From a virus, in the IMG/VR virus record IMGVR_UViG_3300050343_000214, positions 41,802 through 105,801 of that record: a stretch of 64,000 nt of DNA; one strand, given 5' to 3'. The notes under the pieces were generated by a model, which searched no databases, was not told the origin of the DNA, and saw only the letters and a list, made by a program, of their open reading frames with translations. This document shows, one piece after another, positions 30,592-62,002 of this stretch; position 1 is the first letter of the stretch; each line of letters starts with the position of its first letter. Position numbers and translations under genes: made by a program.

Positions 30592-32151
30592 TTATGTTTC
30601 AAAAATTTTATTTACAATAAACGATGTGTCATTCTTATTAACTTGTCCGCAAAATACAAGATTGTTACCCTCGTATAATATATATTTGTATTTATTCTTA
30701 ACTTTGGGGAATATTATTACACTGTCTAGGATAGATGTATCATCTTCTATTGTTAGAAATGCCATCATTTCCCCTTTAGAATTGCCCTTTGTAATCTTGT
30801 ATTCAGATAGTCTTTGTATGTTTGCCACAACGCATAGGTTTTTACCCTTTTTGCCATTGACTATTTCCTTGCATGTGGTGTCTGCGGCAGACTTGTCAGC
30901 TACATCAACTCTAGTTAAAGTAACGGGACAGCCTAGAAATCTAGTTTCTTGATCAATAACCCAGCCCGGATCGTCATCTAGGCTATACGGTGGGTCAATA
31001 AGAAGTTGAATTTCATTTTCTATTACTTGTTGTCTGCTTACCCTAGATGTACCCCCGCCATTTTTTTTGGTGGGCGCTAGAGATTTCAATGCTTCTAAGA
31101 GACTATCCCAAGACTTATTTTTATAGTTTGTGTCCATCCACGAAACTTCGCCTTTAGTTAGAACTCGAAAGATCTCATAGTCATACAGGGCTTGATTCCT
31201 CGAAACTTTAGACCCAAAGTCTCTAAAAAATCCTATTGATGCCAAAGCCTTGAAAGATGTTGAGCTAATTTTTGTGCTAAATTTGAGCAGTATCTCCAAC
31301 CAATCAAACTTCTGTATCTTCTTACCAGATTCTTTTTCACACTGCTTGACTGCTTGAAATACTTTATCTCCACTTACGCCTGATAAGGATTTAACATTTT
31401 TAATACCAAAATATATCTTATTTCTCTTACTATTAAAGTCTAAGTCAAAATTTGCAAGGCTAGGAGTTCTTGTTTCAATATCAAACAACTTTGCTTCTGA
31501 TACTAATTCGTATACTTCTTGTTGAGGATCTTGTTTTTCATTGGCGTAAAATAGGTATGCTAGAAAAAATTCATTAGTATTATGGGCTTTTTGGTATGCG
31601 CTCCAGTAGGAACACACTGCGTAAGATACGCTGTGAGATTTATTAAATGCATATCGAGCAGAGGCTTGAATCCAACCAAAGATTTCTTCTGCCTCTTCTT
31701 TGTTGACCATTCCTACTTTCTTAGCTCCCTTAATAAACATTGTTTTTACTTTAGCCATTAAGTCAGCTTTCTTTTTACCAATAGCCTTGCGTAGCCCGTC
31801 TGCTTCTTCTAGATTAAATCCAGCAATCTTTTGCGCAATACGCATAGATTGCTCTTGATATACTAACACTCCGTATGTAGGCAAAAGAATTTCTTCTAGT
31901 GATTCATGTAGATATGTAACCTCTTCACGACCGTGCTTACGGTCAATGAAGTGTTGTGTCATAGATTTTCCATCTACGTATGCCTTTAAACATCCGGGCC
32001 TAATGATAGCGATTAGGGCAGATAGTTCTTCGATATTGTTAGGGGCTAACTTTTTCGACCAAGACTTACCCAGATTACTTTCTAATTGAAAGACACCCTT
32101 TGTTTTGCCTTCTGCAAACAGTTCCCAAGTTAGTTTATCGTCGTAATTCAT
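30592..32151 (-). CDS. dnaE: DNA polymerase III alpha, C-terminal part (split gene)
   Basis: 519 residues starting at the region equal to the E. coli DnaE fingers: TKGVFQLES, then IIRPGCL, LVYQEQSMRIA, ADGLRKAIGKKK and AFNKSHSVSYAVCSYW. A helical HhH-type region follows, and an OB-like segment with MMAFLTIEDDTSILDSVIIF near residue 455-475. The catalytic aspartates are not here but in the separate gene at 34167-35738. The start overlaps the upstream glycosyltransferase gene by 17 bases. No intein sequence is present at its N-terminus. The product must assemble with the N-terminal half to form a working polymerase. Confidence 0.9.
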   Translation of the reverse strand: MNYDDKLTWELFAEGKTKGVFQLESNLGKSWSKKLAPNNIEELSALIAIIRPGCLKAYVDGKSMTQHFIDRKHGREEVTYLHESLEEILLPTYGVLVYQEQSMRIAQKIAGFNLEEADGLRKAIGKKKADLMAKVKTMFIKGAKKVGMVNKEEAEEIFGWIQASARYAFNKSHSVSYAVCSYWSAYQKAHNTNEFFLAYLFYANEKQDPQQEVYELVSEAKLFDIETRTPSLANFDLDFNSKRNKIYFGIKNVKSLSGVSGDKVFQAVKQCEKESGKKIQKFDWLEILLKFSTKISSTSFKALASIGFFRDFGSKVSRNQALYDYEIFRVLTKGEVSWMDTNYKNKSWDSLLEALKSLAPTKKNGGGTSRVSRQQVIENEIQLLIDPPYSLDDDPGWVIDQETRFLGCPVTLTRVDVADKSAADTTCKEIVNGKKGKNLCVVANIQRLSEYKITKGNSKGEMMAFLTIEDDTSILDSVIIFPKVKNKYKYILYEGNNLVFCGQVNKNDTSFIVNKIFET

Positions 32152-32818
32152 ATGAAGCTTTTTTACTCTCTATAACTTTACTCAAATTTTTGTATTTTTC
32201 AACTAAGCACTTTTGTAGAGGTTGATTACTAGTGCTAATACTACAGTCGTGATAAAGGAATGATGAACTGTCACCATGATTAAATGTGTCGCGTGGAAAA
32301 ACCTCGGTTATATCTCTTACTGGTTGTAGCTCTTTTAAAGTTTTTTGTATCAATACTTGATCTACTGTCGTAAAATTGTCACTGTTAGCCGTAGCTATAA
32401 TGTATTTAAAAAAATTCTTGGAGGCATAAGAGTTCTTTATTATAGCAGATCCAGCGTTGATATTCCAATATGAATTCTCAGAACAACTCTCCGCAGTACA
32501 CCAAAGAATATCCTTATTAGACATCTTAGTGATACATCTCATATCAAATCCAAAATTACATATGGCTATATCTGTGTCCATAGCAAAGAAATAATCTACG
32601 TCCGGTCTTTCTTCTAATAACTTTAAAAGTATTATCCACTTTGTATAGTATCCTTTAGTATGATCCCCACCGTGTTGTGCTACCATGTCGTCATTGTTAT
32701 AGACTTTATACTCAATATCAAACCTGCTAAAATAGTGCTTGTTGTGATTATAAGTTAACTTGTTGATATCGTAAAAGTTTTGATCATGATTAGAGAATGC
32801 AAGTATTTTACTTGACAT
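32135..32818 (-). CDS. GT-A glycosyltransferase (DxD type) between the polymerase halves
   Basis: 227 residues. PDVDYFFAMDTDIAICN contains a DTD motif in the position of the metal-binding DxD of GT-A enzymes such as GT34/GT8, and NINAGSAIIKNS is the usual loop after it; a late HGDSSSFLYHD segment supplies the conserved HG. These enzymes transfer hexose from a nucleotide sugar. It overlaps the exonuclease gene upstream (11 bases) and the polymerase C-half downstream (17 bases), so it is fully integrated in the replication operon. Confidence 0.7.
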   Translation of the reverse strand: MSSKILAFSNHDQNFYDINKLTYNHNKHYFSRFDIEYKVYNNDDMVAQHGGDHTKGYYTKWIILLKLLEERPDVDYFFAMDTDIAICNFGFDMRCITKMSNKDILWCTAESCSENSYWNINAGSAIIKNSYASKNFFKYIIATANSDNFTTVDQVLIQKTLKELQPVRDITEVFPRDTFNHGDSSSFLYHDCSISTSNQPLQKCLVEKYKNLSKVIESKKASYELRR

Positions 32819-33488
32819 ACAATCCCCCGTTGGCGAATGCTTTATCTAGTTCAATTTCTTGGTAAACTGCTCGATGAGTTTTTAGTAGCTTTATAAATAT
32901 ATTAGCAGTATCTTTGACATCCTGCAACGCATCGTGAGCATTTTCGGAACTTAATCCCATGCGCTCTCTCAAGCTATCCATGCTTATGGATCTAATGCTA
33001 GGATCTCCCTCTGTCCACATGTGCATATTATCCATAACGTCACACTTGTGAATTTTGCTGAACATTTTTTGCTGCTGCCTCGCGTCGTCGTAAGGTCCGT
33101 ATTCTTTACATAGCCTATTAATGATAATCATATCAAAGCCAATGATGTTAAAACCTACGGGGATGGGATTAAAGAAAGGATCTTTTTTCCAATTATATTT
33201 GTCTACAAAGGTGCAAAACTTTCTCCATACTGATTTTAAGGTTGGAGCCTTTGCTAAATCATCTCTATTTTTTCCAGTAACTTTGAGCGCCCCGTCTTCG
33301 ATTGGATCTAAACCTGCGGCAATAGCGGCATCGTCGCTAAGAATAGGTCTAATCTCACTGTTAAAAGTTCCCTTCATAGACAAGTTTCTACCATCCAGCG
33401 CTAAGGCAGCGATTTGAGTAGGTTGTGTTTTATGAGGGTTACGACTTCCTGTTTCAAAGTCAAATACGATATAGTCTCTGTTAGCCAT
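32808..33488 (-). CDS. DEDDh 3'-5' exonuclease (DnaQ-like), probable proofreader
   Basis: 226 residues. Exo I motif IVFDFETGS (D and E), Exo II VGFNIIGFD, and Exo III ENAHDALQDVKDT (H and D) give all residues of the DEDDh site. Such enzymes remove mispaired 3' ends. It lies between the two halves of the polymerase alpha gene, whose own PHP domain appears to lack metal ligands, so this protein is the likely separate proofreading subunit. Ribosome site AAGGA six bases before ATG. Confidence 0.85.
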   Translation of the reverse strand: MANRDYIVFDFETGSRNPHKTQPTQIAALALDGRNLSMKGTFNSEIRPILSDDAAIAAGLDPIEDGALKVTGKNRDDLAKAPTLKSVWRKFCTFVDKYNWKKDPFFNPIPVGFNIIGFDMIIINRLCKEYGPYDDARQQQKMFSKIHKCDVMDNMHMWTEGDPSIRSISMDSLRERMGLSSENAHDALQDVKDTANIFIKLLKTHRAVYQEIELDKAFANGGLYVK

Positions 33489-33490
33489 AG

Positions 33491-34180
33491 TTAGTCCTTC
33501 TTTTCTATTCTTTTAGTAAAAAGGGAGTCGCCAGAAATTCCTTCAAACTGATATTCCCTTGCTTGTTCGTGTAATCCGTATTCATTCAAAAACTCTGCAA
33601 TCTTTTCTAAGCTCTGTTCTCCATCGTACATAATGTATTTTGTTGACCATTCAAAAACCGTAGCCTTTACTGTGGTGATTAAATTCTTACACCCTAAGAA
33701 CGCATGATATTCAGCACCTTGAATGTCCATAAAAATTGCATCTATTGATGGTATATTATATTTCTTACAGAAGCTGTATAGTGAAGTTGTTTTAACCTTT
33801 ACTTCTTCGTGTATGTCATTAACCTTAAAAATACTTTTCATACCTACTCCCGGCTTCAATATAGAACCCTGTCCAGTGTTTTGTAGGTTTTTACCAATCA
33901 TGGTTTCTTCGTCTTTGATACTTTCTGTTGGAAAATATTTGTAGAAACTAATTTCCCCATCCACCGCGCTTATTGCTTTGTGGTAAACGCTGACGTTGGG
34001 ATTATCCTCAAACTTGTCTTTGATGATTTGACAATTAAACGCATCAGCTTCAAATGCATAAATTTTAGCATTAGGCCAAGCGTCTAATATTTCTGGTATA
34101 TCATACCCCCTGTGGGCGCCAACTTCAAATATATGCTTTAAGTCAGGAAAACTTTCCTTAACCCTATTAATGAACAGCAT
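33491..34180 (-). CDS. FkbM-family methyltransferase
   Basis: 229 residues. IFEVGAHRGYDIPEIL is the SAM-binding loop (E-V-G-A-x-x-G), IYAFEADAFNC the acidic ribose-binding strand, and AIFMDIQGAEYHAFLG the FkbM D-I-Q/E-G-x-E motif. FkbM enzymes O-methylate sugars or polyketides. Overlaps the end of the polymerase N-half by 14 bases and is followed two bases later by the exonuclease gene. It would act with the phage glycosyltransferases. Confidence 0.85.
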   Translation of the reverse strand: MLFINRVKESFPDLKHIFEVGAHRGYDIPEILDAWPNAKIYAFEADAFNCQIIKDKFEDNPNVSVYHKAISAVDGEISFYKYFPTESIKDEETMIGKNLQNTGQGSILKPGVGMKSIFKVNDIHEEVKVKTTSLYSFCKKYNIPSIDAIFMDIQGAEYHAFLGCKNLITTVKATVFEWSTKYIMYDGEQSLEKIAEFLNEYGLHEQAREYQFEGISGDSLFTKRIEKKD

Positions 34181-35738
34181 TTGTCAATTCCTTTATTTTC
34201 ATTAGTTTATCTAGGAGGTTAATTCCTAGAACATCAAACTTTACATGACCTAGTGCTTCTAAGTCTGTCATTTCTAAGCCTGCTATCTTTTCTATAGAAC
34301 CTTTCTGTTGTATCATTGGACATACGTTTTGCAATTTGTCTTTAGATATTACCACGCCAGCAGCGTGTTTGCCCTGTGTTTTAAATGTGCCTTCCATATC
34401 AATAGCTTGCTGGAAGTATTGCGCGTAGTCACCATCAAGCTTTCCTTCGTCTGTGATGTTGCAAAAATCTCTTAAGTCATCTGACCTGTTAATCAAAGAC
34501 CAACGTATTATAGATCGGTCTTCGTCGTCCATGTCTGCTAGCTGATCAGATATGTCTGCTTCATTTGGTATACTCTTTGTTATAGCATTCATCTCGCTAA
34601 AAGAACAAGCCTCATTTATCCTTAAAACTTCTTTTATTGCACTACGCCCCTGCAACCTTCCAAATGTTATCATCTGGCTAACATGATCTTTACCATAAGT
34701 TAGTTTAAGATAATCAATAACTTCATCACGCTTTTTGCCCGGAACGTCCATGTCAATATCTGGCAAGGAAACATGACCACCAGTGTTTCTTCCAGCGTTG
34801 TAAAACCTCTCAAACAATAAATCGTGTTCCACTGGATTGATCTTTGTTATACCAATAAGATATGAAATAAGACATCCAGCAGCAGAGCCTCTGCCGGGAC
34901 CAGCAATACAGCCCATGTCATCTTCTACATGCCTTATTATATCCTGAACAATCAAGAAGTAGCCAAATAGATCTGCGTCTTTAATAACTTGTAATTCTTT
35001 CCTGAATCTATCTCCATATATTTTTTGGGTATCTTTATCTTCGCCAACCAGAGGTTTTACAAATTTTGTATATCCCTTTCTAGCCATCTTAGTTAAGTAG
35101 TCTTCTTGAGACAACCCTTTAGGACATACAAATTTCGGAAGCATGGGTGGATTTAAAATTTCATAGTCTTCACAGGAATCATATATATATTCCAACTCTT
35201 TTGTTACTTTGCCTTTCGTAATACACTTGTTGTCCTTAGTAAAATATTCTAGCAAATCAGCATCTAGTTCTTTATTTCTAATTTTAGTATTTACTTTTGG
35301 TAATGTAGTCTTTAATGCAGAACAAAGTAGAACTCTGTGTAAAGCAGCTTGCTTACTATTGACATAATAAGATGGCTGAATGTTATCTTTTTCAGCTTGT
35401 AGGGCAATTAAGTTATTTCTACCTACTATTTCTTTTGCTATGTCTTTTGGCATGTTGCCATTTTCATCAGTAAAAGAAACCATCTGTATAAGGTCGTGCC
35501 ACCCGTCTTTATTCTTAGCATATATTGTAGTGTTATCAAAAGAACATCCAATGATAGGCTTGACTCCCACCTTCTTACACGCTTGATGAAATGACACTGC
35601 GCCAGAGATTGTCTTATAATCTGTGATGCCACACGCAGGATAATCATTGTCAGCACAAACCTTTGCAAGTTCATGCGGTTTTGAAAAGCCTTTTAGCAAA
35701 CTATAATGCGTAAAATTCTTCAATGGAAACCAGTTCAT
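34167..35738 (-). CDS. dnaE: DNA polymerase III alpha, N-terminal part: PHP and palm (split gene)
   Basis: 523 residues aligning to E. coli DnaE from its start to just past the third catalytic aspartate. Seen in order: a short PHP-like region (YSLLKGF, CGITDYKTISGAVSFHQACK, VKPIIG), GPGRGSAAGCLISYLIGIT, LPDIDMD with catalytic D327 and D329 (E. coli D401, D403), ITFGRLQGRSAIK, KTQGKHAAGVVIS, and VKFDVLGI with D502 (E. coli D555). It stops 20 residues after that. The fingers and C-terminal domains are encoded 2 kb downstream at 30592-32151, after FkbM, exonuclease and glycosyltransferase genes. PHP metal ligands look lost (TDY instead of TDH; F/T instead of the HxH start). Together the halves total 1,042 residues, near a normal alpha subunit minus the tau-binding end. 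Confidence 0.92.
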   Translation of the reverse strand: MNWFPLKNFTHYSLLKGFSKPHELAKVCADNDYPACGITDYKTISGAVSFHQACKKVGVKPIIGCSFDNTTIYAKNKDGWHDLIQMVSFTDENGNMPKDIAKEIVGRNNLIALQAEKDNIQPSYYVNSKQAALHRVLLCSALKTTLPKVNTKIRNKELDADLLEYFTKDNKCITKGKVTKELEYIYDSCEDYEILNPPMLPKFVCPKGLSQEDYLTKMARKGYTKFVKPLVGEDKDTQKIYGDRFRKELQVIKDADLFGYFLIVQDIIRHVEDDMGCIAGPGRGSAAGCLISYLIGITKINPVEHDLLFERFYNAGRNTGGHVSLPDIDMDVPGKKRDEVIDYLKLTYGKDHVSQMITFGRLQGRSAIKEVLRINEACSFSEMNAITKSIPNEADISDQLADMDDEDRSIIRWSLINRSDDLRDFCNITDEGKLDGDYAQYFQQAIDMEGTFKTQGKHAAGVVISKDKLQNVCPMIQQKGSIEKIAGLEMTDLEALGHVKFDVLGINLLDKLMKIKELTNAVH

Positions 35739-48670: not shown

Positions 48671-50908
48671 CTAAATTATATCACACTTCCCGCCAGCGCA
48701 AGCTACTTCTTGAACTGGATTAACATTATTTTGTTTTTCTATTACCACTGTGTAGTCTATATCCTTGTACTCACGTTTAATATCTAGCCATTCTTTCCAG
48801 TTGTAGACATCTTTCATGCAATATGTAAGTTGTTTTAGATCTCCGTTCCATGTATCTGTCAGCAAACTGTTGACATTTATTTTGATAGGACTTTTTATCT
48901 TTGCCTTTATGTTTTTGACCAACACCTAGCAGGCTATCGCAGGCTGCCCAAAGATTATCTTCATACAGTGAAAGTCCAACTTCTATCAGTCCACTAACAA
49001 ACATCGCAGCGTCTCCGTAGTGCTGTATCTGCTCGCTAGGTAAATACACCGTTGTGAATGGAGCTTGTGCGTAGTCTTTATCTCCAGCGATTGGTAATAA
49101 AGAAACACCACAGAAATACTTACGATTTTTATAAATAAAACTCTGTAACTTCTTCCCATTCGTCTGGTTTAACATTGATAGTATTAGATACATTATGTGT
49201 TAACCAAGGTTGAGTACATTGCTTTGGATTTGTACCGCTTGACAACCCAGTTACGCTGCGTACTCCTGACGTACTCAAGCAAGTCAATTGCTCCAACTTG
49301 ATTTTTAATCTTCGCACCGTCTGGAACCTCCACACAAAATGCTACTACGTCATCCGAGTCATTGTTAGACCATACGGACTCTTCACAGGCTCTAGGATTA
49401 ATACTTCTGAAGTGTTGGTAGATAGGCTCCATTTTATTTGCTTGGACTCTACGGATGTATCTCTTGGCGTGGTGGGGATGTATGCCAGATGACGTTCCAA
49501 GAATGCAACTTGACGTTCCTTCTGGCTTGACACACGTAGTTCTTGCAGCTTGATTGACACCAATTAATTTTGCCAGCTTTTTTATTTGTTTCTTTAACTA
49601 TTTCTGCGCCCTTCTTTTGCACTTCTGGATCAAGACAGATTTCATGTTGCTCCATAACGCCCGTCATCGACACGCCTAACAAAGCTTCGCGGCTTATAAT
49701 TCTTTCTGATACCTCTCCGAGATATGGAAAGCTAGCAAATCCAGCTTGCAGTGTTCCAATAATTGCAGCAGAAGCACATGCTTCGTAAAATTCTTTTTTG
49801 GTTGTTACTTTGGCGCAGTTAATAGTCGATAGATTACACGCCTGCCACCCAGTTTTACCTGTCTTTTCGTCTACAGGCCACATGCCAATTTCCACGCAGG
49901 GATTCACAATCAGCTCTGTAGAATCAGACCAGACAAATCCGGGCTCTCCAAACTCTTTTACGGATTGCATTAGTTCAGAAAATTGTTCTTTAGTTGTCTC
50001 GTTTCGCAAAAGCAATGCAGAATTGTTGGAACGTCCGCGCTGTGGGTTGTCAGTAAACCATGATCCAGTTTTGGCTTTCGCCATTTCTTCGTCGTCAGCA
50101 GAAAACAAGCAAATTGTAGCGCTACGACGAACACCACCACTAATTACAGCGTCAGCCGCATACATCACTATATCATATGCTTCAATAGGTCTAAGTTTCT
50201 TCTGTCCATTTTTAATAGCTCCGTCAAGGGTCTTCTTGATTTGCTTGTAAGGGCATTTCTTAAAGGATCTGGGCCGGGAGCCTTCCCTCCGCTAGACTTT
50301 AAATGAGAGCCTGCTGGACGTATTTCTGAGTAGTCGAAAACAATTGTTTTACCATTATATTCAGGGAAAAGATTATCTCCCTTAAAATAACTAGAGACAA
50401 GAACGCCCACTGCGTCTGACCATCCCTCAATAGAATCTTTAATGACAAATTTCTTTTGACCATTCTTTCCTTTAATTAAGTTAGGAAGTTTAGCGATATG
50501 ATGTTTTTGTACAGAAAATCCAGTTCCACACCCACATAATAGCAGATACATGCACTCTTGGAAAAATCTTGTTCTATCAATATATGATGCAATACAATTA
50601 TATATTCTAGCATTATGTTTGAATATAGGAGAGCCACCAAACTGCAAAGCTCTTTGTGAACCAAGAAGCTTTTTTCTTCTTCATATCACTCGTATGCTTG
50701 ATCAATATGACCTTAACAATGTCTGCCAATGGAGGTGTTCGTCGCTATCAGTTGTAACACTAGGATCGGATGGGTCAGCATACTTGTCAATCATCATCTG
50801 TCTTACTCGATCAACTGATTCACCCCATGTCTCTCTTCTTTCTTTGCTTTCATCCCACCTTGCGTATTTAGAAACGAACGTATAATTCATCAAGGATTTA
50901 ATTGACAT
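48671..50908 (-). CDS. nrdJ: Adenosylcobalamin-dependent (class II) ribonucleotide reductase, many frameshifts
   Basis: Starts MSIKSLMNYTFVSKYARWDE. Motifs in order across about seven breaks: ARIYNCIAS (first redox Cys), CGCGTGFSVQKHHIAKLP, EIRPAGSHLKSSGGKAPGP, ISGGVRRSATICLFSADD, NPCVEIGMWP (thiyl-radical Cys region), ACNLSTINCAKV (partner Cys), LLGVSMTGVME, KPEGTSS-type loop, and C-terminal VACAGGKCDII, whose C-x4-C equals the CEGGAC pair of Lactobacillus RTPR. Monomeric enzyme reducing NTPs with coenzyme B12. Phage depends on host or environmental B12. Motifs are intact, so the gene is probably functional and the breaks are sequence errors. Confidence 0.88.
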
Positions 50909-50951
50909 CTACGATCCTCATGTTCTTTTAAGTAAATTAAATTATATAAAA

Positions 50952-51569
50952 CTAATCAAAATATTTTTCAAGCAACTTGTAAACAATAAACTTGCACACA
51001 GTAGGGATTATAATGAATACCAATAGGTATGTCAGTATAACAGAACCATACTCTTTTTGCATTTCTTTTTTAACATTATGCGTTACAAAGTCAACACACT
51101 GCTTCTTCAATTTTCTTTTATCTTTTGCTGTGGCGGTTTTAAAGCATGTTGCCTGACTAGATATTTTAGCCCATTCGTCAGCATAAAACAAACATAAGTT
51201 TGCAATTTTTTTCTTTTCCCCACAATATTTTGTGTCTATGATTTGCTGTATACTAGAGACGTTTGCGCCGTCTGCGCTTGAGCTAAAAAATCCATCATAT
51301 GGAAATGGTATAGATGGGAAATTTTTAAGTTCAAAAAAACCATGCTCATCTTTAAGAGTGATACTGACGACTGTGGCTGAGATTGTAAAAATTCTTTTTA
51401 TAGACGCCTTGGGTTTGTTATCAACAAAATTTATTGTTATTGATTCATCTTCATTCTTAATTACTTCAAACTTTAAAGGAGACTCTGCTGCTATTTTAAT
51501 TCCGTTTATTTCAGCTCCTTCTTCTGTAAATAAGCTTGATATTAATTCTTTTGCTTCTTTAGGAGACAT
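50952..51569 (-). CDS. Tail-anchored membrane protein, 205 aa
   Basis: A soluble beta-rich region (residues 20-115), a Cys/Lys-rich helical part (ATAKDKRKLKKQC) and one hydrophobic helix near the C-terminus (SVILTYLLVFIIIPTVCKFI). No signal peptide, so the topology is probably cytoplasmic with a C-terminal anchor. Four Cys in the helical section could form disulphides if exported. Unknown family, first of a group of membrane/exported proteins upstream of nrdJ. Confidence 0.5.
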   Translation of the reverse strand: MSPKEAKELISSLFTEEGAEINGIKIAAESPLKFEVIKNEDESITINFVDNKPKASIKRIFTISATVVSITLKDEHGFFELKNFPSIPFPYDGFFSSSADGANVSSIQQIIDTKYCGEKKKIANLCLFYADEWAKISSQATCFKTATAKDKRKLKKQCVDFVTHNVKKEMQKEYGSVILTYLLVFIIIPTVCKFIVYKLLEKYFD

Positions 51570-51573
51570 ATTA

Positions 51574-52032
51574 CTAACCTTTCTGAATTAACGCCCAAGA
51601 CACTCCTTCAAAGTATGCGTGTAAAGCTTTGCGCTCTGACTTGCTTAGTTGATGATTATCATCTCCTATGACTGATCTGAGAATATCAGATATGCTCTCC
51701 GCAAGTCCGTCGTACTTATCAGCAAGTGTTGATTTAAAAAACAACTTCCCTGCTATTACATACACATCATTTACTTGCTGACAGTCAGTATTATATCCTA
51801 AAATTCTTTTAGAGAATTCATAATTAAAAATAGCTAATTTTTCTCTATCATCTTGATCTGTTACTAGAGCAGAAATGTTTTTGGATATTGACAAGATTGG
51901 ATCGCTAGGCTTTTCTATGTTTAGTATACTTGGCGTTGGAATAAACGGCCTAATATCTATGTTAGATAAATCTACATTGAGGCCAAATACAGAATAAGCA
52001 AGCAAGACGAGTGCTATTACTTTTTTATACAT
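51574..52032 (-). CDS. Exported protein with signal peptide, 152 aa
   Basis: MYKKVIALVLLAYSVFGLNV is a typical Sec signal (basic start, hydrophobic core, G-L cleavage area). The mature part is helical with a conserved-looking DREKLAIFNYEFSKRILGY and a final YFEGVSWALI. I have an impression of similar proteins in marine phages but cannot verify. Probably periplasmic; might act in lysis or exclusion. Starts two bases before its neighbour's end. Confidence 0.5.
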   Translation of the reverse strand: MYKKVIALVLLAYSVFGLNVDLSNIDIRPFIPTPSILNIEKPSDPILSISKNISALVTDQDDREKLAIFNYEFSKRILGYNTDCQQVNDVYVIAGKLFFKSTLADKYDGLAESISDILRSVIGDDNHQLSKSERKALHAYFEGVSWALIQKG

Positions 52033-52034
52033 TA

Positions 52035-52301
52035 TTATTCCTCCGTATTTAACAACGGAAATACCTCGTCAATTTTTTCGACGGCAGATTTAAGCTCTAA
52101 CGATTCACATTGGTTTCTGAGCGTGTGCCAAGTTTCAACTACTTCAATGAATGAAGCGGCCTGCGCTTGAACTTCAGGGCTAGGTTTTCTTTTGAATAAA
52201 TTTTTTACGTAAGTCACGTAGGGCTTAACATCAAAATTGACAAACAATAAACTTGCGGCAACCGCAATGGCTATTAGCCTTAATAAAACTTCTGTATCCA
52301 T
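52035..52301 (-). CDS. Small N-anchored membrane protein, 88 aa
   Basis: One hydrophobic helix (LLRLIAIAVAASLLFV) then a Tyr/Lys linker and an amphipathic helix (ASFIEVVETWHTLRNQCE). Bitopic layout like an inner-membrane spanin or pinholin partner, but no lipoprotein partner is evident. Overlaps its upstream neighbour by one base. Confidence 0.45.
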   Translation of the reverse strand: MDTEVLLRLIAIAVAASLLFVNFDVKPYVTYVKNLFKRKPSPEVQAQAASFIEVVETWHTLRNQCESLELKSAVEKIDEVFPLLNTEE

Positions 52302-52660
52302 TATTCCTCCAAAATTTTTAATGGTTGAACGACAATAGTATCATCCTTTTTCCCGTGATATGGACACACAGTTTTGTGACCGTCTCCGTGGACTATAACT
52401 CCAGAGCCTTTGCAAATGCATTTATCTGGATCTGGATGTGGACCGACTATATCTGGAGTTGGTTTTACTCCAAATACTTCTTTCTCTGACTCGTCAAAGG
52501 ACTTCTTGACTTCTTGCTTCCATAACTCTACTTCTGAAGGTTCGCTGCTAAAACTAAGAGGTGTTCCTCCATCAATTATAGACGGAGGGTTATTTACAAA
52601 GTGCAATGTTCCTATGACAGAAATTAAACTAATAAAGCATAATTCCAAAAATCTTTTCAT
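52301..52660 (-). CDS. Membrane-anchored zinc-binding protein, 119 aa
   Basis: Signal-anchor helix (FLELCFISLISVIGTLHFV), Glu/Ser linker, then a compact motif CICKGSGVIVHGDGHKTVC followed by PYHG, with four Cys/His pairs that would bind one zinc. The motif resembles a DnaJ-type CxCxGSG element and recurs in phage proteins of unknown role. Overlaps its upstream neighbour by four bases. Confidence 0.5.
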   Translation of the reverse strand: MKRFLELCFISLISVIGTLHFVNNPPSIIDGGTPLSFSSEPSEVELWKQEVKKSFDESEKEVFGVKPTPDIVGPHPDPDKCICKGSGVIVHGDGHKTVCPYHGKKDDTIVVQPLKILEE

Positions 52661-52887
52661 GGACTGCCTCCATCCACAGCGTTGTAATAAGAAATATCAT
52701 CGAATTTTGCAGTGTAGAGAGTTTCTAGTTCTGTTGGTGTTAAACTCGTATCAAACTCAACAAAACTAGGATCGGTGCTGGTATCAATTGTAAACGAAGT
52801 TCCAGTAGGAAAACAGCTTACTGTGACAGTTCCGTTCCTAAGAGTTGTGGTTGAAGCGTGTGCGTTTTGAGCGACATCAGTTGGCAT
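52657..52887 (-). CDS. Small uncharacterised protein, 76 aa
   Basis: Thr/Ser-rich strands (TTTLRNGTVTVSCFP, GTSFTIDTSTDPSF) and an acidic helical end. No membrane segment. Separated by 31 bases from the LamG-like gene upstream and coupled to the membrane-protein group downstream. Could be a small virion protein; family unknown. Confidence 0.4.
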   Translation of the reverse strand: MPTDVAQNAHASTTTLRNGTVTVSCFPTGTSFTIDTSTDPSFVEFDTSLTPTELETLYTAKFDDISYYNAVDGGSP

Positions 52888-52918
52888 ATTAATCTCCTTT
52901 TATAAAAATAATGTTGTA

Positions 52919-53782
52919 TTAGGGCGCAGATGTAGTGCTAATCATTGGGTAAGTAGTAAAGGTCACACTTTCAAAGTCTTGACTTGGCGTTGCGGGTGGG
53001 GTAAAATTCAAGCCTCTTTTGTATACAGCCAAATTTCTAATGTGAAAATGATCTATCTGACCACTAAAAGCATTGTTTCCATCTTTGTCAGAACCAATTG
53101 TTAGTTTTCCACCGTTTAAAAATTCTATTACTTGATCAGAATTTTCTGACTGTGTGGTCGTTGTCTTTTTACGCCATCAATGTACATATAAAAATTTACT
53201 GTTAGTATACCCTGAGCCACTCTGTCTGACGATAGCTACATGATGCCATCCGCTAAGGCCCACAGCATCGCTGGTTAGACTGCGCGTACTTACAGTGCCG
53301 AAATCTTTATGTAAATAGGTATAGCTAAATTTAATTTTGTTATCAATCATCTCTACTTTATAATTTCCATAGGAATTCTCATGACTTTGTTCTAACAAAA
53401 CAGCGCTGCTAACATTTGCAGTAAAGTAAACAAAGAATTCCAGTGTAAAATTGTTTGTACCAATAGCTGTTAGAGCATTGTCGGAATTAGTATCGTCGTT
53501 ATAGATTCTTCCCCCTGAAGTATTTTTTAATGAAGCTAGACCAAACTTCTTATTAGTTCCATCTAGATTAATATTAGAAGATGTAAAATCCAGATCAGCG
53601 CTGGAAACATCCTCGAAATTATTATTAAAGGGTAAAAGTACGAGGCTTGCATAACCACTCGCTGGAAGGTCTTGAGGGTTATATATTAGCTCGTTTTCAG
53701 AATAAACTTGCGCCACTGGGGTGTCAGGCTCTGCGCCAGAGTACAGCGTTACGGTTTGTTCGCCAAGATATATATTAGCCAT
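52919..53782 (-). CDS. LamG/concanavalin-like lectin protein, one frameshift
   Basis: Opens MANIYLGEQTVTLYSGAEPD, then the LamG_3 pattern: FGLASLKNTSGGRIYND, FTLEFFVYFTANVSSAVLLE, KIKFSYTYLH, GWHHVAIVRQ. Frame changes near 53170 and continues QVIEFLNGGKLTIGSDKDG, SGQIDHFHIRNLAVYK. About 287 residues including a flexible C-terminal end (STTSAP). Probable glycan- or surface-binding virion protein, next to Mtd-like proteins. Confidence 0.7.
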
Positions 53783-53800
53783 ATTATTTTGCTCTTTTAA

Positions 53801-54403
53801 TTAGGTTACTACGTATATTGTGTTGGGATCTTTGTCTGCTAAAGCTGTATATTCTGAGCTGCTTAATGCGAGAATATTGTTTGCGGTTACTTTATATGCT
53901 AACCATTTATCTAGAGTTGCATCGTAAGTAAACGACGCTGCTTGACCGTACTTTAAAAGTATGTCAGATCTTGGGATACAATAAATTCTGTTAGCTGCAA
54001 CAGCTGTTGTACTTTGACTTTTGATTGTGATGTTTCTGTCTCCAGAAGTTACATCATTTATCAAAACAAATTGCTTAATTGCGTAGTCATCATCTACCCC
54101 GTGTATGGTAAAGTTTGCGTTTAATGTAGATACTTTAATTAGGTCTAGATTAGCAGTTGGCAGAAATGCGGCATCTGACGTAGACACACCGTCTCCCAAC
54201 GTTTGTGTACCACCTACTTTTTGCTCAACCGAACTGTTGATTGTAGGCAATGCTGACCAAGCCCTGTCACCATCTCCAATTTTTAAGACGTTGGTATCAA
54301 CAGCAAATGCTGGTTCACCACTGGCTAGAATTGGATTGGCGCTACTGAATGAATCTCCTGTTCCTCTTCTTATCTGAATTCTTGTGTTAGTATAATCTGG
54401 CAT
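53801..54403 (-). CDS. Tail-fibre protein with Mtd-like N-terminal domain
   Basis: IQIRRGTGDSFSSANPILAS, GEPAFAVDTNVLKIGDGD and WSALPTI follow the repeat typical of the Mtd/hyaluronidase-type N-terminal domain (IQ-x-RRG...W...NP-x-LA-x-GE-x-G...D...KIGDG-x-x-W-x-LP), used to attach receptor-binding proteins to tails. The rest is beta-rich. 200 residues. No reverse transcriptase or variable repeat seen nearby, so no evidence for a diversity-generating system. Confidence 0.75.
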   Translation of the reverse strand: MPDYTNTRIQIRRGTGDSFSSANPILASGEPAFAVDTNVLKIGDGDRAWSALPTINSSVEQKVGGTQTLGDGVSTSDAAFLPTANLDLIKVSTLNANFTIHGVDDDYAIKQFVLINDVTSGDRNITIKSQSTTAVAANRIYCIPRSDILLKYGQAASFTYDATLDKWLAYKVTANNILALSSSEYTALADKDPNTIYVVT

Positions 54404-54462
54404 AGTATTTTACCCTTATGTATTGTGTACAGTGTGTCAACATATAATACACTGAACTGTAA

Positions 54463-54757
54463 TTAAAATGCCGATAAACTAATCTTTTTCCATTGATTAG
54501 TATCATAACAAACATATAAATAGTTGCTATCTACGGCGGTTTGACCTTTTTCACCTTGGGCTGTACCAGAGGTGGGAATATCGGAGTGACTGTTAGTTAC
54601 TGGCAAACTAGCCCATGTGCTAGACCCGTCGCCTGTCTTGAGGGTGTTGGTATCAAGCGCAAGAGCTGGTTCTCCGCTGGCTAACACTAACGTGCTAGAT
54701 CTTAGCTCATCGTTAGTTCCTCTTCGGACTTGTATTTTACTATATTGTGATGCCCAT
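54463..54757 (-). CDS. Short Mtd-like tail-fibre protein, one frameshift
   Basis: After a break a few codons into the gene the frame reads SQYSKIQVRRGTNDELRSST, then LASGEPALALDTNTLKTGDG and WASLPVTNS, so it is a paralogue of the neighbour at 53801-54403. About 98 residues; the C-terminal part (TAVDSNYLYVCYDTNQWKKI) is a small beta domain common at fibre ends. Starts 3 bases after the Hint-protein stop. Confidence 0.65.
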
Positions 54758-54760
54758 TTT

Positions 54761-57082
54761 TTACTCCAAGGTTTCTGCGCATACTGGTGTTACCCCATCA
54801 TTTTTGGGGAAAGGATGACTCCAAAAGACGTTTATTGATTCTACTTGCTTAACGTCGGTAACATCGTATTTAGCTACTGGTATATTGCACAGACTAGCAT
54901 TGGAAAATATATAGCCACTGTGTATCGTCGGAGTTCTCTCAAATAGTTTGTATTCGCCAGCCTCTACGCTAGTTACAATCTCTCCTACACACTCTCCGTT
55001 GGGTGATCCATCGCTATCTAAACACTGATCTGCAAACATCGCTGGGTCGTTTTGAAAGTAGTAAGCTCTAGTAGGATCGCATCCGCAACTTTGTTTACAT
55101 GGCGAAGGAAAAGAATGATTTCTGAAATCTTGTGATATCATTTGTTCCCATACGCTTTGACCATCACCAAAGACTCCAATATCGCATCCACCATAAAAAT
55201 TATCGCCGTATTCCATACACGGCATCATGATGAAAGCTGGATTATCTAGGGGCCAATTTGGATTATCATTATAAAATAACTCTGGATGAGTTTCAAATGT
55301 ACCTTCTGGCTCTAATAGATCAATTAAAAACTCATAATGATCGCTATACTTCTGTTTCCACTCTTCAACTTCTTGATTTGTTAAAGGCTCGGGTTTGACG
55401 CAGGAAAAACCGTAGCCATTATAATGCATATTGTATCCCTCGGGACATCTTCCTTGAGGATCACTTACATTATTATTTGTTTCACACCCATACCTCGGTT
55501 CGTCTACTGCTACAATTCTATAAGTGGGACATTGTAGCACGGTTCCTTTTGAACCGTCTTCATTATAACATTGTATACTAGTAGTTTCTTCTATAAGTTT
55601 TGTACAGCCAGCAACTGGAAGTTGCTTCATAAGATCCGATGACTCTAATGCATCACAAGAACAAGGAACATCTGGAATGTCTTCATATCTACATTGATCA
55701 TCTACTGGACAATCGTCTGGACAAGTGCCGTATCTAGTCCAGCCTACATGTATTTTACCAGCAAGATCAGGACACGCAGGTTCAAGAACTGGTGGATCGC
55801 ATGGCGCTCGGGTCGTGGTTGTTGTTGGTGCGGCAGATGTTATAGGAGGAGGATTTGTTGGTTGGGAAGTAGCTAGAACCGATTTATTGTGACTGAGGAA
55901 TTCATCTGCCACATAAGTATGAGCATCATCTACTTGGATAATAACAACATCTTGTACGCCGTTGTCTTCTATTTTAGATATTGTGCGCCCTTGTAACACT
56001 TCGTCAACCACTAAGTCATACGCTGAAACCCATTGATTTTTATGATAGAACTGATGACTAGGAGAGCATGTGAAAGTACCCCCATCCTCAAAAGATAGTT
56101 TGAGAGTTTCAGATAACTTAATTCCAACGTATGTTATTTCATGCTCACCAGACTCCATAGTTATTTCATGTTGTGTTAATAATTTATCACCCACAACTAA
56201 TTCACCAGCGAGTTTTTCACTACCGTCCGACATTTGAATCGGAGTATCCACCGTGGGGCAACCGGCAATACAAAATATGTGTTTATACATGTTTGATTTG
56301 GGGGGTCATAATAAATGATGCGACGGTTCAAGGAGTCATAGCTACACCAACCACCTGACAACACAGGGGGACACGTTGTTGTGGCTGACGATGTAGTTGT
56401 AGTCGTCGTGTTGGTAGGGTCTGACAAACAGTTTTGCAGACAACCCTCGGCATCAAAAACTCCCAAGTAACCTTCGTTACATAAGCCGTTTGTCTGATTA
56501 GTAACTGATGAAAAATCGCAGGCTTCGCACTCAACTAGCACTACCATGCGCTCTGTATATATCTTAGTTCTTAAATTAGGGTCTCTATAATATATAGTAG
56601 TAGATACAAAGGCATTTTGTCCATCTATTAGAGTTTTGCCCAAGCTATTTTCGTTATCATCTAGAAAATCAGACAGAGGGAAAGTCTCTACTTTAGATTG
56701 TAGATGAGTAGCAGTCTTAATATTATCTTCTGTTGCAAAATTATCAAAGCTGTACTCTACAGTAGTTCCATTATCTATTTGGTCTGAAATATTAAAAACC
56801 ATAGTGACTTCTGCCGTATGGCTATTCAGCTTGCACTTACCATCCTGCTGAACTTTTAGTTGTTCTGGATTAGATGGAGTGTCTAGCTTAAAGGCGTTGA
56901 ACCTAAAGTCTATTTCTCATCATCGCAGTTAGTATACGGGAGAGAAGTGTCTTTACTAATAAATAAATATGTTTCACCATACTCTAGCATATCTATGCCT
57001 TGTAGACCGCCCCCTTCAACAAACGAAACTGTTGACCATTAGTTAAAAACTTAATGATCTTAGATATATTATTAGTATTCAT
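54761..57082 (-). CDS. Cys-rich surface protein containing an intein-like Hint domain; frameshifted
   Basis: From ATG 57082. Frames change at about 57030, 56925 and 56275, giving about 770 residues. Order: an unknown N-terminal domain (IDFRFNAFKLDTPSN, VTMVFNISDQIDNGTTVEY), a short Cys-rich part, a Thr-rich linker (TNTTTTTTSSATTTC), a block ending NRRIIYYDPPNQTC, the 125-residue Hint domain (separate entry), a second Thr-rich linker (SAAPTTTTTRAPC), and a Cys-rich C-terminal domain (CDPPVLEPACPDLAG, CPDDCPVDDQC). Most Cys are in pairs, suggesting disulphides in an extracellular fibre. No reason to call it an enzyme other than Hint. Confidence 0.6.
55886..56260 (-). other. Hint (hedgehog/intein) domain, BIL-like
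   Basis: 125 codons from a Cys after IAG to the Asn of SHN. Block A: CPTVDTPIQMSDGS and ELVVGDKLL. Block B: GTFTCSPSHQFY, with the conserved T-x-x-H-type His. Blocks F/G: VDDAHTYVADEFLSHN. The residue after Asn is Lys then Ser, not the Cys/Ser/Thr that protein splicing normally needs, and no homing endonuclease is present. That layout fits bacterial intein-like (BIL) domains, which cleave or ligate at their ends. Confidence 0.8.
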
Positions 57083-57093
57083 ATTATTTTACT

Positions 57094-57378
57094 TTATGGT
57101 CGAGATCTAGGGTCTTTCATTGCCTTTTTAATAGCTAGATTGACAACACAATCTGCGCCAAACTTGACAAACGGTAGTTTTCTCTTAGTGGCTTCTTCTG
57201 CTAACCAAGTTAATATTTCTTCCTTATTATCTTGACACCATTTAATTCCTTTATTATCCATCTGCGCTGCGCGTTGATTACAAGAACATGTTGGTGTGGA
57301 TTTAATGCCTACTAGACTAAACATTTTCTTAAGCTCCGCACCAGCACCATGGACTATTTGGGAATTTACTATGCTCAT
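57094..57378 (-). CDS. Small Cys-containing protein, 94 aa
   Basis: GAGAELKKMFSLVGIKSTP, then CSCNQRAAQMDNKGIKWC and EEILTWLAEEATKRK. The GAGxELKK...C-x-C...A-x-MD-x-x-G-x-x-WC pattern is one I associate with a family of small proteins in Planctomycetota and some phages; I cannot check this. May be fused with 57329-57541 if an indel lies in their overlap. Confidence 0.55.
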   Translation of the reverse strand: MSIVNSQIVHGAGAELKKMFSLVGIKSTPTCSCNQRAAQMDNKGIKWCQDNKEEILTWLAEEATKRKLPFVKFGADCVVNLAIKKAMKDPRSRP

Positions 57379-57541
57379 TATCTAAATAATATACTTCTGC
57401 TTTTATCTCTTTACCTTCCCCGGTCTTTAATTGTGCCATTTCATCTGATTTTACTACGCAGGGCAGAGTTTCTTCTACGGTATAATTTCTTTGTTTGCAT
57501 AAGTTTTCGTAAGCTTGTTTTTCCATTTTAACGATTGGCAT
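57329..57541 (-). CDS. Small hypothetical protein, 70 aa
   Basis: Good ribosome site (GGAG five bases before ATG). Sequence KQAYENLCKQRNYTVEETLP then an acidic KTGEGKEIKAEVYYLDNE. The last 16 residues overlap the next gene in another frame, so either a 50-base overlap or one missing base joins them into a single about 150-residue protein. Confidence 0.45.
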   Translation of the reverse strand: MPIVKMEKQAYENLCKQRNYTVEETLPCVVKSDEMAQLKTGEGKEIKAEVYYLDNEHSKFPNSPWCWCGA

Positions 57542-57577
57542 TGTTTTCTCCTTTATTTCATCAGTTGAAGTGTCCTT

Positions 57578-57583
57578 ATTATA
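57578..57583 (-). promoter_or_regulatory. Possible -10 element (TATAAT)
   Basis: On the - strand a perfect TATAAT lies 36 bases before the ATG at 57541, in one of the few gaps of this operon (57542-57638). No well-spaced -35 box: TTTACA lies only 13 bases upstream. In AT-rich DNA such a hexamer can occur by chance. Confidence 0.25.
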
Positions 57584-57638
57584 TTACCATATTTGTTGTA
57601 AAAAACCAAATTTATTCGCCAGAACTGTAGTTTCATCC

Positions 57639-60600
57639 TTACGGATAAGAGTTCTCTTCGTAGCCTTCTGCAAACTGGCCTGTACATTCTTCTTCCGGCG
57701 GTGAGGGACACCGACAGTCAGCGACGGTTTGAACCGTAGCGCCTTCGCTGCCCTCATGGGTAGGCATTGAGTCCCCACAAATCTCTCGTAGCGAAGCACA
57801 AGTACTGTCACCGCAGTCTCCATCGGCACCGCTGAAAACCCACCACTCTATGACCTCTGAAACTGTACACTGTTGCTGAAGCCATTCATTAGCTACGTCA
57901 CTTATAGTTCTAGTGCCTAAACACAGATCTTCCCATAAAGAACTTGGCATTGTTTCACATGTATGCTTCGTCTCAAGGTATTCTAACTCTTTTGACAAAT
58001 CTTCAGTTATCTCATCTAAGTAATCACTAGTATCACCACAGCATTGATTGGGGATAGTTAGTAAAAGTGTCCCAAGACCAGTTACAATTAATAGAATTTC
58101 CTCCTGCGCATGTGCAGGGCGTTGGTGCTGCTGTGGTTGACGGCGGCGGGGCTGTTGGTGGTGCAGGTAAGTCAGGACATTGATCCCAACCTGTTTGACA
58201 GCCATCAGCACCATAAATTGCCTCGACAGGAAATCCATCGTCGCACACGGGTGATGCCAACGTAAAGTCTGGACATTCAGGTGGGCCGGGAATATCAGGT
58301 GTTGTTCTTGGTGGTCGTGGTCCTAACGTTGGATTTGGTGGATTAGGAAATGGTGGAAATGGACCCATAGGTGGTATCGGTGGTATCGGTGGTGCAGAAG
58401 GTAAAGGTGGTCGTGGTGGATATCTCGGAGGATTGTTTGGTGTTGGATCAGGATCTTCTGGTGTTGGATCAGGATCTTCTGGTGTTGGATCAGGATCTTC
58501 TGGTGTTGGATCAGGATCTTCTGGTGTTGGATCAGGATCTTCTGGTGTTGGATCAGGATCTTCTGGCGGTGGATCAGGATCTTCTGGACACTCATCCCAA
58601 CCAGTTGGCAGTCGTTCTCATCGAAAGTTCCTGATGGCGAAGAAATATTACCATCTTCATCTCACATTCGGGTGCTGCTCGTTAAACGCTGGACAATCAC
58701 ATGAACCCCAACCAGTTTGGCAGTCGTCCTCATCGAATTCTCCAGATGGAGAAGTGTCGTCTGGGACATTCGGGCTTTGGTTCATCAAATTCTGGACAGG
58801 GGCATTTTCCCCCAGCCTATTTGACAGTCATTATCATCTGATTCTGGTTCAGGAGAAGAAATATTACCATCTTCATCTACGCATTCGGGTGCTTCCTCGT
58901 CAAATTCTGGACAGGGGCATTTTTCCCAACCAGTTTGGCAGTCATCATCATCATAAATTCCATCTGGTGAAGATCCATCTTCGCACTCGGGTGCTGGATC
59001 TGAAAATTCTGGACATGGACATTCACCCCAACCTGTTTGGCATCCAAGCCATCATATATCGCCTTCAACGAAAACGAGATCTCCGTTGGAGGAGGGTGCG
59101 CATTCGGGTTCTGGATCGTTAAATGGCGCACAAGTGGTAGTTGAGGTAGTAGAAGAAGTAGTACACCCTGACAGACATGTATTACCACAAAGGTCTCTTA
59201 CTACTATATCATATGTCACTGTTTGTGGCAAACCGCCAAACGGCGACTCTATTAAAACCGTTTTAGTACCCATCTGTATGCCTCTTCCATGCTTAGGTGG
59301 ACACGGCGGGTACGAGTCAGCATCGCAATCGCAATCTGGTGGAGGGGGAGGACACTCACCCCAACCTGTTTGGCAGCCGTTCTCGTCCTCAGTTCCTTCC
59401 GGCGAAGAGCCGTCTGCACACTCAGGCGCTGGAACGTCAAACTCTGGACATTCGCATGGACCCCAACCCACAACGCAGTCTAAACCATCGGATCGTTCTT
59501 CACCGTCTTTCAGTGGTATAGCGCTTGTTCCTTCTGGACATTCTGGTGCGTCTGGTTCAGGAGGACAGGTTGCGGCGGCGGGTCTGTTGGTGGTGGTGTG
59601 GTATTACAAGGTTCATGACCAGTATGACACCACAAGCCGGGAGCTGTTTCCGAGGTTATTGGTCTTCCTCCACCGAGTTCGCATTGTGGGTCATCCGGTC
59701 CCGGGGACATGTTGGTGGTGCTTCCGTGGTTGTATTGCAGGAATCGTAGCCACTAACACACATTGTTCCATCGGGTCCAGTGAACCAAATGGGATCTCCT
59801 CCACCAAAAGAACAGTCGGGAGGAGGTGGTTCAGGGAGGACATTGAAAATCTGGACATCCACAACAAATATTGCCTACTTCATCTTTACTATCCTCAAAT
59901 GCTTGGCTACCATCGGGCTGTGTAACGGGATTCTGTATCGGCTCCGGCGCTCCATACAAGCACGTTCTGCCGCAAGTGCCCTCACAGCTATTGTCAGGGG
60001 GGAGGGAGAGTGGTCGTTGTTGTTGTACTACAAAGGCAGCCAGTAACATTGTCACAAGCGTCTGTAAATTCTTCTTCTACACTGAGCGGAGAGCAGTACG
60101 AAGAGCATCCATTTCTTCAACTATTATACACTCACAGTCATCTGCATTGTCGGGACAGCCACAAAAAGTATAATCAGGAAGAGAAGTGTCGCAAGGATCA
60201 GGGTTACAATCCCATCCAATAATTCCAGATGGGCAACAATCAGAGTCCGTTGAATTGCCTTCCATCCTTACGCTCATTGCATATATTGGCACTGGTTCGT
60301 TACCGTTATCACAAGGTATTTTTGGAGGACAACAATCTTCTGGCTCTTCTGGACAGTCTCCCCAGCCTGTTTGGCAGTTGTTGTCGTCGAAAGTGTCCTT
60401 CCGCGAAGAGCCGTCTGAACACTCAGGTGCTGGAACGTTAAACTCTGGACAATCACATGATGTGTAGCCAATTGTACAGCCATATATGTCTTTTATTATA
60501 GTGGGCAATGTTCCGTCTGAGCATGGGGGTGGAACAGCGGGAGGCGAGTCACACACCACTGGAGGTAAAGTCGTTGCGCACATCTGCCTGTCGGGATCAT

Positions 60601-62002
60601 AGAAAGTACCAGAAGCACATATGCAATTTTGCACAGACTTACCGTTCATAGTTAGATTTGGCCCAGATATAGATCCTAGTATATTTCATTACAAGGTCTG
60701 TGTTCAGGTGCTGACGGCCTGTCTTTACAATCGCTATAATTAACGCACTCTATAGCTAGTCCGTCTGGCCCCAACGTCAGTCCGATAGAAGTTTCTCTGT
60801 ATTGATTTTCCCCACATGGCGCTGGCTCGCTGAACAACCATTTGGCGGTTGCGTGGTTTTACATACGTATTCACCACAAGGTTTGGGAATATTAACATTA
60901 ATCGGTGGTTTAATAAAATCAACGCCGGTAAAGACAATCTAAATCAGGCAAGTATGAATAATCAACAACACACATAGTTTGGACAACCATTACTTGGTAA
61001 ATCCATCTTGATTAAGTACTTCGTATAAATCCGTACAGTTTGCCGCATTAAATTCTGCCCCTGTTGGACAAGCTGTAGTGGAAGTTGTAGTTGTACTAGT
61101 TGTTGTTGTGGTAGTGCTAGTTGTTGTGCTTGTAGTTGAAGTTGTAGTCACTGGGATACAGTTGTGTTGATCACATCCATCTTGTTGGAAAAAAGTTCCA
61201 TCTGGAGTATATCCTTCTGGACAGTCATAAGGCGGTGAACACGTTGTTGTGGTCGGAGCAGCGGTTGTAGTCGTCGTTGTGCTAGTAGTAGTTGTTGAGG
61301 TTGTTGTAGTTTGTAGTTTGTAGCAGCAGAACTACAGTCAACGAGGGACATCCAGCACCATCGTCTTCTACTTCTACCCATTGACCGCTGCCAACAGGAC
61401 ACTCAATAGTGGATGATTCCCACCACGATACATTTGAGCCAGAATCTGTAGTATCACACAGCCAGTTCCAAATTGAGTACACCCAGTTACTGGATCTACT
61501 CCAATTACCTGTGCAGAAAAATTACTAGGACAAGGCGCTGGAGTTGGGCAAGCCGTCGTAGTAGTGCTAGTAGTGGTGCTTGTCGTTGTTGTTGAAGTCG
61601 TAGTGGTTGTAGTGGCGCAACTGCCAGACCCATCATCTGCACAACACATGCCATATAGTTTACAACCAGCCTCATCAATACCAGTGACAATTCTAGTGTG
61701 ATTTGCGTCAGGGACATGGTGCAGGAGTGTTATTACAAGGGGTAACAGGGTCAGAATCTATCGGAACGCACATATATCTTGGGCATGGGTCTTCAAGATC
61801 AAAATTGCCAAAGGTGTTCAATGAGCCGGGACTGTTACTACGGTGACTAGGATATAATATTTTTTCATAGCCAGTTGGACAGGTTTCTGGTTCGCAACAC
61901 TCTCTATATACAGGACAGCCTTCAGAAGTTAGCCCTTTATACGTATATTTATTAAATGTTAATTCGTTTTCAAGGGAAGGTTCTCCATTTAAAATACCTC
62001 AT
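57639..62002 (-). CDS. Giant Cys-rich repeat, Thr-rich (mucin-like) surface protein; heavily frameshifted
   Basis: Coding is continuous on the - strand from an ATGA overlap with the peptidase at 62002 to a TAA at 57639, but frames switch roughly every 100-300 bases (about 1,450 residues in all). Order: GLTSEGCPVYREC, CPTGYEKILYP; a Cys part linked by Thr tracts (near 61560-61615, 61250-61310 and 61080-61140); CTGAEFNAANC-type blocks; then about nine copies of a four-Cys repeat (separate entry); a Pro-rich region with seven DPDPTPE units; and a C-terminal domain (CCGDTSDYLDEITEDLSK, WWVFSGADGDCGDSTC). No membrane helix. Probably a secreted or virion-surface adhesin. It may be two genes, or fused to the peptidase. 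Confidence 0.55.
58170..60550 (-). repeat. Array of about nine four-cysteine protein repeats
   Basis: Consensus: C-P-E-F-x-x-P-x-P-E-C, then D-G-S, an acidic stretch, C-Q-T-G-W-G-x-C. Clear copies lie near 60352-60455, 59360-59457, 58915-59030, 58800-58920, 58690-58800, 58590-58695 and 58170-58280; diverged ones near 60445-60545 and 59455-59545. Frames differ between copies, consistent with indel errors in repetitive DNA. Confidence 0.75.
58436..58582 (-). repeat. Seven tandem 21-bp units encoding DPDPTPE
   Basis: Exact 21-base units (one variant at each end) without spacers, in frame on the - strand as a Pro/Asp/Glu linker. The + strand reading (Gly/Ser repeat) is a shadow. Confidence 0.9.

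Follow-up and report, generated by a model that had tools for sequence, protein, structure and literature searches.

Mini-inteins such as gp41-1 and Ssp and Npu DnaB carry Cys, Ser or Thr directly after the intein (position +1), reside in replication enzymes and splice cleanly, and a second group sharing the Hint fold, the A-type bacterial intein-like (BIL) domains, is said to go back to work by Amitai in 2003 and Dassa in 2004. A-type BILs end in His-Asn and lack a nucleophile at +1; they mainly cleave and sometimes splice, by a route in which the Asn cyclizes and the freed amine then attacks the thioester (PMC4031507). The BIL2 domain of the ciliate BUBL1 locus reportedly forms an isopeptide bond on a Lys ε-amine and transfers its flank to other proteins (PMC8616854). 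Here we analyze a Hint domain encoded in a 64,000-nucleotide stretch of viral DNA (positions 41,802 to 105,801 of IMG/VR record IMGVR_UViG_3300050343_000214; this whole stretch is called the window). We interpret it as an A-type BIL-like Hint that is predicted to autoprocess a phage protein of tail or adhesin type and whose function requires a Lys at +1 or +2, a reading to which we assign a probability of about 0.68. It is based on sequence, fold, conservation and context, with the chemistry of the steps inferred from the family.

Hint domain and host gene

The domain lies on the minus strand at 55886–56260 and translates to exactly 125 residues, from Cys1 (codon 56260–56258) to Asn125 (codon 55888–55886). 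It forms one open stretch that leaves no space for an endonuclease, and the translation agrees with the initial annotation, which had placed here an intein-like Hint domain with all core blocks and no endonuclease. The catalytic set is complete: the nucleophile Cys1 (56258–56260, minus strand) in block A, CPTVDTPIQMSDGSEK; the block B histidine His69 (56054–56056, minus strand); and His114 and the terminal His124-Asn125 within blocks F/G, A113-H114-T-Y-V-A-D-E-F-L-S-H124-N125 (55886–55924, minus strand; DDAHTYVADEFLSHN). These are followed by Lys126 at +1 (codon 55885–55883, minus strand), so that, as had been claimed, Cys, Ser and Thr are absent from that position.

Because a phmmer search, a profile built from relatives and the predicted fold all match Hint or intein proteins, the domain is not a chance resemblance. 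The phmmer search against the PDB returned the gp41-1 intein (E = 0.002) over query residues 15–136, and the relatives' profile matched DnaB inteins (9e-10), Tetrahymena BIL2 (1e-9) and the C. thermocellum BIL (3e-6). An AlphaFold model computed from a 17-row alignment adopts a Hint fold with a mean predicted local distance difference test score of 91.8; the Foldseek template modeling (TM) scores are 0.84 for the Ssp DnaB mini-intein, 0.80–0.81 for Tetrahymena BIL2, 0.80 for the C. thermocellum BIL and 0.75 for gp41-1. The Hint/BIL-type reading of the initial annotation is borne out by these fold and profile matches.

The domain has the sequence and fold features of A-type BILs. With these, including the C. 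thermocellum BIL (2lwy, ~22% identity in the fold alignment), it shares the Hint fold, blocks A, B, F and G, Cys1, the block B His, the C-terminal His-Asn, the absence of a homing endonuclease and of Cys, Ser or Thr at +1, and a variable, secreted or surface host. The subfamily to which it belongs differs from them in a TxHExTxxWG signature, in Lys at +1 or +2 and in its phage tail or adhesin hosts. The mini-inteins gp41-1 and Ssp and Npu DnaB have the same fold and motifs and are the best structure and sequence matches, but a true (class 1) intein was rejected given the Lys at +1 and a host without recognized homologue; Intein_splicing (PF14890) was likewise rejected, at 10.9 bits against a curated cut-off of 35.8. 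Tetrahymena BIL2 (6y75, 6tmm) has the same fold and a His-Asn end but is eukaryotic, is flanked by ubiquitin-like sequences and, in the solved chain, lacks a Lys directly after the Asn, so any resemblance would concern the reaction and not the placement of the Lys. The best Pfam match is PT-HINT (PF07591; 7e-5), a family that also has its Hint within variable surface proteins; we rejected a pretoxin domain because the score of 23.5 bits is below the curated cut-off of 27.7 and no toxin domain was recognized downstream, the Pfam search of the host protein giving no match outside the Hint.

The host gene is best read from a contig of another metagenome record, IMGVR_UViG_3300017763_004017 (L001), which aligns to window positions 48745–61983 with 99.1% identity over 13.2 kb and 54 gap openings, and in which all 375 bases of the Hint are the same. 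There, a single 774-amino-acid open reading frame (ORF; L001:5200–7524) comprises ~274 residues, the Hint, the Lys and ~374 residues. In the window copy, single-base gaps near 56284, 56918 and 57030 disrupt the corresponding N-terminal part (56261–57082, minus strand): the window ORF (54761–56290) starts at an internal ATG ten residues ahead of Cys1, and the preceding ORF (56197–56802) occupies another frame. Because L001 has one intact ORF at this place, we regard the window copy as frame-broken, most likely through sequencing or assembly errors. ORFs across 48745–61983 are often broken in the same way, by indel errors of the window assembly. The ~374-residue C-terminal part (54761–55882, minus strand) consists of a Thr/Pro linker and then a Cys-rich region. 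The architecture initially described, an N-terminal region separated by the Hint from a Thr-linked Cys-rich domain, is thus found intact in L001 but not in the window, whose ORF retains ten residues before Cys1. Outside the Hint, the host protein had no homologue among the matches listed from 50,697 phage records; a PHROGs search did not assign the window protein convincingly to any family, and single-sequence protein scans matched only L001.

A phage Hint subfamily and its post-Asn lysine

The TxHExTxxWG signature, which in the window Hint reads T29-Q-H31-E32-x-T34-x-x-S37-G38 (56147–56176, minus strand), defines a phage Hint subfamily. A six-row profile retrieved 24 loci in viral contigs and two further scans added many more, yielding a non-redundant set of 81 domains ending in HN that fall into 40 clusters at 60% identity. 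Conserved positions in an alignment of 77 rows are C1, A18, G24, T29, H31, E32, T34, W37, G38, H69, W77, A113, H114, H124 and N125. The catalytic residues are near-invariant (C1, 99%; H69, 100%; H114, 92%; H124 and N125, 99%) although the clusters diverge to ~30% identity, and the signature is similarly retained (T29 and H31 invariant; E32, 96%; T34, 97%; W37, 96%).

Several hosts of this subfamily are recognizable tail proteins: that of L251 matches phrog_1101 tail protein (1e-118) and Phage-tail_3 (5e-32), those of L253 and L254 match the tail fibre family phrog_5616, that of L250 matches Phage_Tail_Tip, and the tail protein phrog_4271 is also represented. In most hosts, the Hint sits at the extreme C-terminus, preceded by a Gly- or Pro-rich linker and followed by 5–15 residues after the Asn; in a minority, including the window protein, L246, L248, L306, L328 and L334, it is internal. 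BIL-like Hints are therefore frequent in phage tail proteins, with ~40 clusters in this one subfamily, and the surface-protein setting of the window Hint is not exceptional; the rarity implied by the initial annotation, that most phage inteins sit in replication enzymes, does not hold for this class.

Lys follows the terminal His-Asn far more often than composition would predict. To sample this residue, we used patterns that ended at HN and left the next residue free, applied them to bacterial and archaeal genomes and to viral contigs, and clustered the full-length Hints; loci from a pattern that demanded Lys at +1 were excluded from the statistics because of that bias, unless an unrestricted scan found them again. 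Among Hints without Cys, Ser or Thr at +1, Lys occupies +1 or +2 in 27 of the 33 clusters from genomes and in 17 of the 27 from viral contigs. A set pooled from these at 50% identity, which also takes in five clusters of the subfamily, has Lys at +1 in 25/48 and at +1 or +2 in 34/48, against a background of 4.8% per site at +3 to +14 and hence an expected 9% (p ~1e-24). Within the subfamily, 37 of the 40 clusters have Lys at +1 (17) or +2 (20); two of the three exceptions have it at +3 or +4, and the remaining one, which has Cys at +1, is an ordinary intein. Arg replaces Lys in none of the 40, several Hint proteins terminate precisely in HNK, and the label changes between +1 and +2 at least 6 to 9 times on a tree of the 77 domains. 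Because the residue shifts by one position yet stays Lys, we infer that a need for the Lys amine probably explains the pattern better than a fixed contact or charge alone. The initial annotation had treated the +1 Lys as a missing splicing nucleophile; the nucleophile is indeed missing, but the strong conservation of Lys at +1 or +2 means that the position is not defined by mere absence. A literature search found no report of a post-Asn Lys or of the tail-protein subfamily, which is weak evidence given that subscription papers were mostly outside its scope.

The scans also returned other Hint arrangements. Flavobacterium loci such as L146, L165 and L191 encode a C-terminal Hint family ending in HN-xK (YK, IK, FK or VK), with two copies within 4 kb in one genome. 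In a Gemmatimonadetes metagenome-assembled genome (MAG; L177), a subfamily-related Hint follows a stretch resembling a nitrile-hydratase-type leader peptide (LTDAELEAVAGGN), and tandem Hint domains occur in single proteins of an archaeal MAG (L167) and a viral contig (L092).

Proposed processing and alternative explanations

By analogy with the family, Cys1 would attack the carbonyl of the preceding Gly, with assistance from His69, to form a thioester, and Asn125 would cyclize with the help of His124, cutting the C-terminal junction. Because no Cys, Ser or Thr is present at +1, the reaction is expected to yield chiefly cleavage fragments or a ligation resolved by an amine, with the Lys amine at +1 or +2 most likely resolving the thioester or helping to do so. 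Since the proteins of most relatives end with the Hint, processing would usually release or cap the C-terminus of the tail protein; in the window protein, the 274-residue N-terminal part and the Cys-rich C-terminal part would be separated or rejoined. We tentatively consider, as a more specific and rather unlikely version, that the Lys is itself the thioester acceptor, so that the N-terminal segment would become joined through its C-terminus to the Lys side chain by an isopeptide bond. Such a bond, in cis or between neighboring subunits, would leave tail proteins covalently capped or cross-linked, and covalent attachment by the window Hint is possible.

Some observations count against a functional, Lys-dependent BIL-like domain. 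Block B of the window copy reads CSPSH, with Ser where the TxxH motif usually has Thr, and position 37, which is Trp in 96% of relatives, is Ser. The intact host gene is known from one other contig alone. Sampling relied on block F/G or TxHE patterns and so amounts to a partial census, and the clusters share ancestry. The Ser37 substitution could also mark an inactive intein relic retained as a structural module, the activity of the Hint being a prediction; near-invariant catalytic residues across the 77 rows, in clusters as divergent as ~30% identity, make such a relic quite improbable. The many single-base gaps relative to L001 could suggest an assembly artefact or chance ORF, which we rejected as having a negligible probability, since L001 has the identical 375 bases within an intact gene and the fold and profile matches are strong.

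Two further explanations accept an active domain and assign the Lys a different role. In a classic A-type BIL, the freed α-amine of the +1 residue would attack the thioester and rejoin the flanks, leaving the Lys side chain uninvolved. This mechanism has been proposed for type A BILs without a +1 nucleophile (PMC4031507), and rejoining would make sense for the window Hint, which has long flanks on both sides, but many members stop 1–15 residues past the Asn and have nothing to rejoin, and the retention of Lys at +1 or +2, its switching of position and the absence of Arg are left unexplained; we judge this account unlikely. Alternatively, the Hint could be a self-removing C-terminal maturation domain with a role like that of self-cleaving tail-spike chaperones: it would cut itself off after folding, and the Lys would have an orienting or general-base role and would not be the acceptor. 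The C-terminal location of the Hint and the few residues behind it in most hosts of the subfamily, confirmed tail fibres among them, and the Gly- or Pro-rich linkers before Cys1 fit this proposal, which becomes doubtful in view of the 374 residues behind the window Hint and the internal Hints of the five loci named above. An autoprocessing A-type BIL-like Hint with a required Lys is the reading we favor.

Genomic setting and significance

The Hint locus is a tail-fibre and adhesin neighborhood. Adjoining genes, all on the minus strand, encode an Mtd_N protein (54463–54756; Pfam 2.7e-12 on the L001 copy, which has 97 residues at L001:7528–7821, the window ORF spanning 54463–54687), a tail-fibre-type protein with Mtd_N and Phage_tail_C domains (53801–54403; 2.8e-10 and 5.5e-7) and a Laminin_G_3 or lectin-like protein (53177–53782; 2.4e-16 on the L001 copy, which has 287 residues; the window copy is truncated). 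These domains uphold the surface-protein setting first proposed, and because the adjoining genes are tail-fibre and adhesin-like, the Hint host is likely a surface protein, with membership of the virion inferred from gene context. A nearby 1386-residue protein (L001:484–4644; window ~57.6–61.8 kb, minus strand) combines Cys-rich repeats with long runs of Thr and a PEDPDPT repeat and gave no Pfam match. At 4002–11485 (plus strand), two large FG-GAP_2-repeat proteins of 425 and 1729 residues are possibly more adhesins.

The phage also encodes DNA polymerase III alpha, primase and exonuclease. The polymerase is split over two ORFs within 30592–35738 (minus strand), a PHP/NTPase part (34167–35738) and a finger part (30592–32151), which are separated by three unrelated genes (an FkbM methyltransferase, an RNase_T exonuclease and a GT34-like glycosyltransferase); no split-intein residues were seen at the break. 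Across the whole record, searches found a single Hint of the TxHExTxxWG subfamily, no Intein_splicing match and no Terminase_6N match.

The conserved Lys is what raises the interest of the window Hint. Even without Lys chemistry, the analysis shows that BIL-like Hints are a regular component of phage tail proteins. Should the Lys participate in the reaction, many phage-tail and bacterial Hints would be amine-directed acyl transferases and not failed inteins, offering a genetically encoded, ATP-free means of capping or cross-linking virion proteins and possibly a new ligation tool. Were an isopeptide bond formed, they would constitute a large, Lys-marked Hint class using a reaction that parallels, in phages and bacteria, that of ciliate BIL2.
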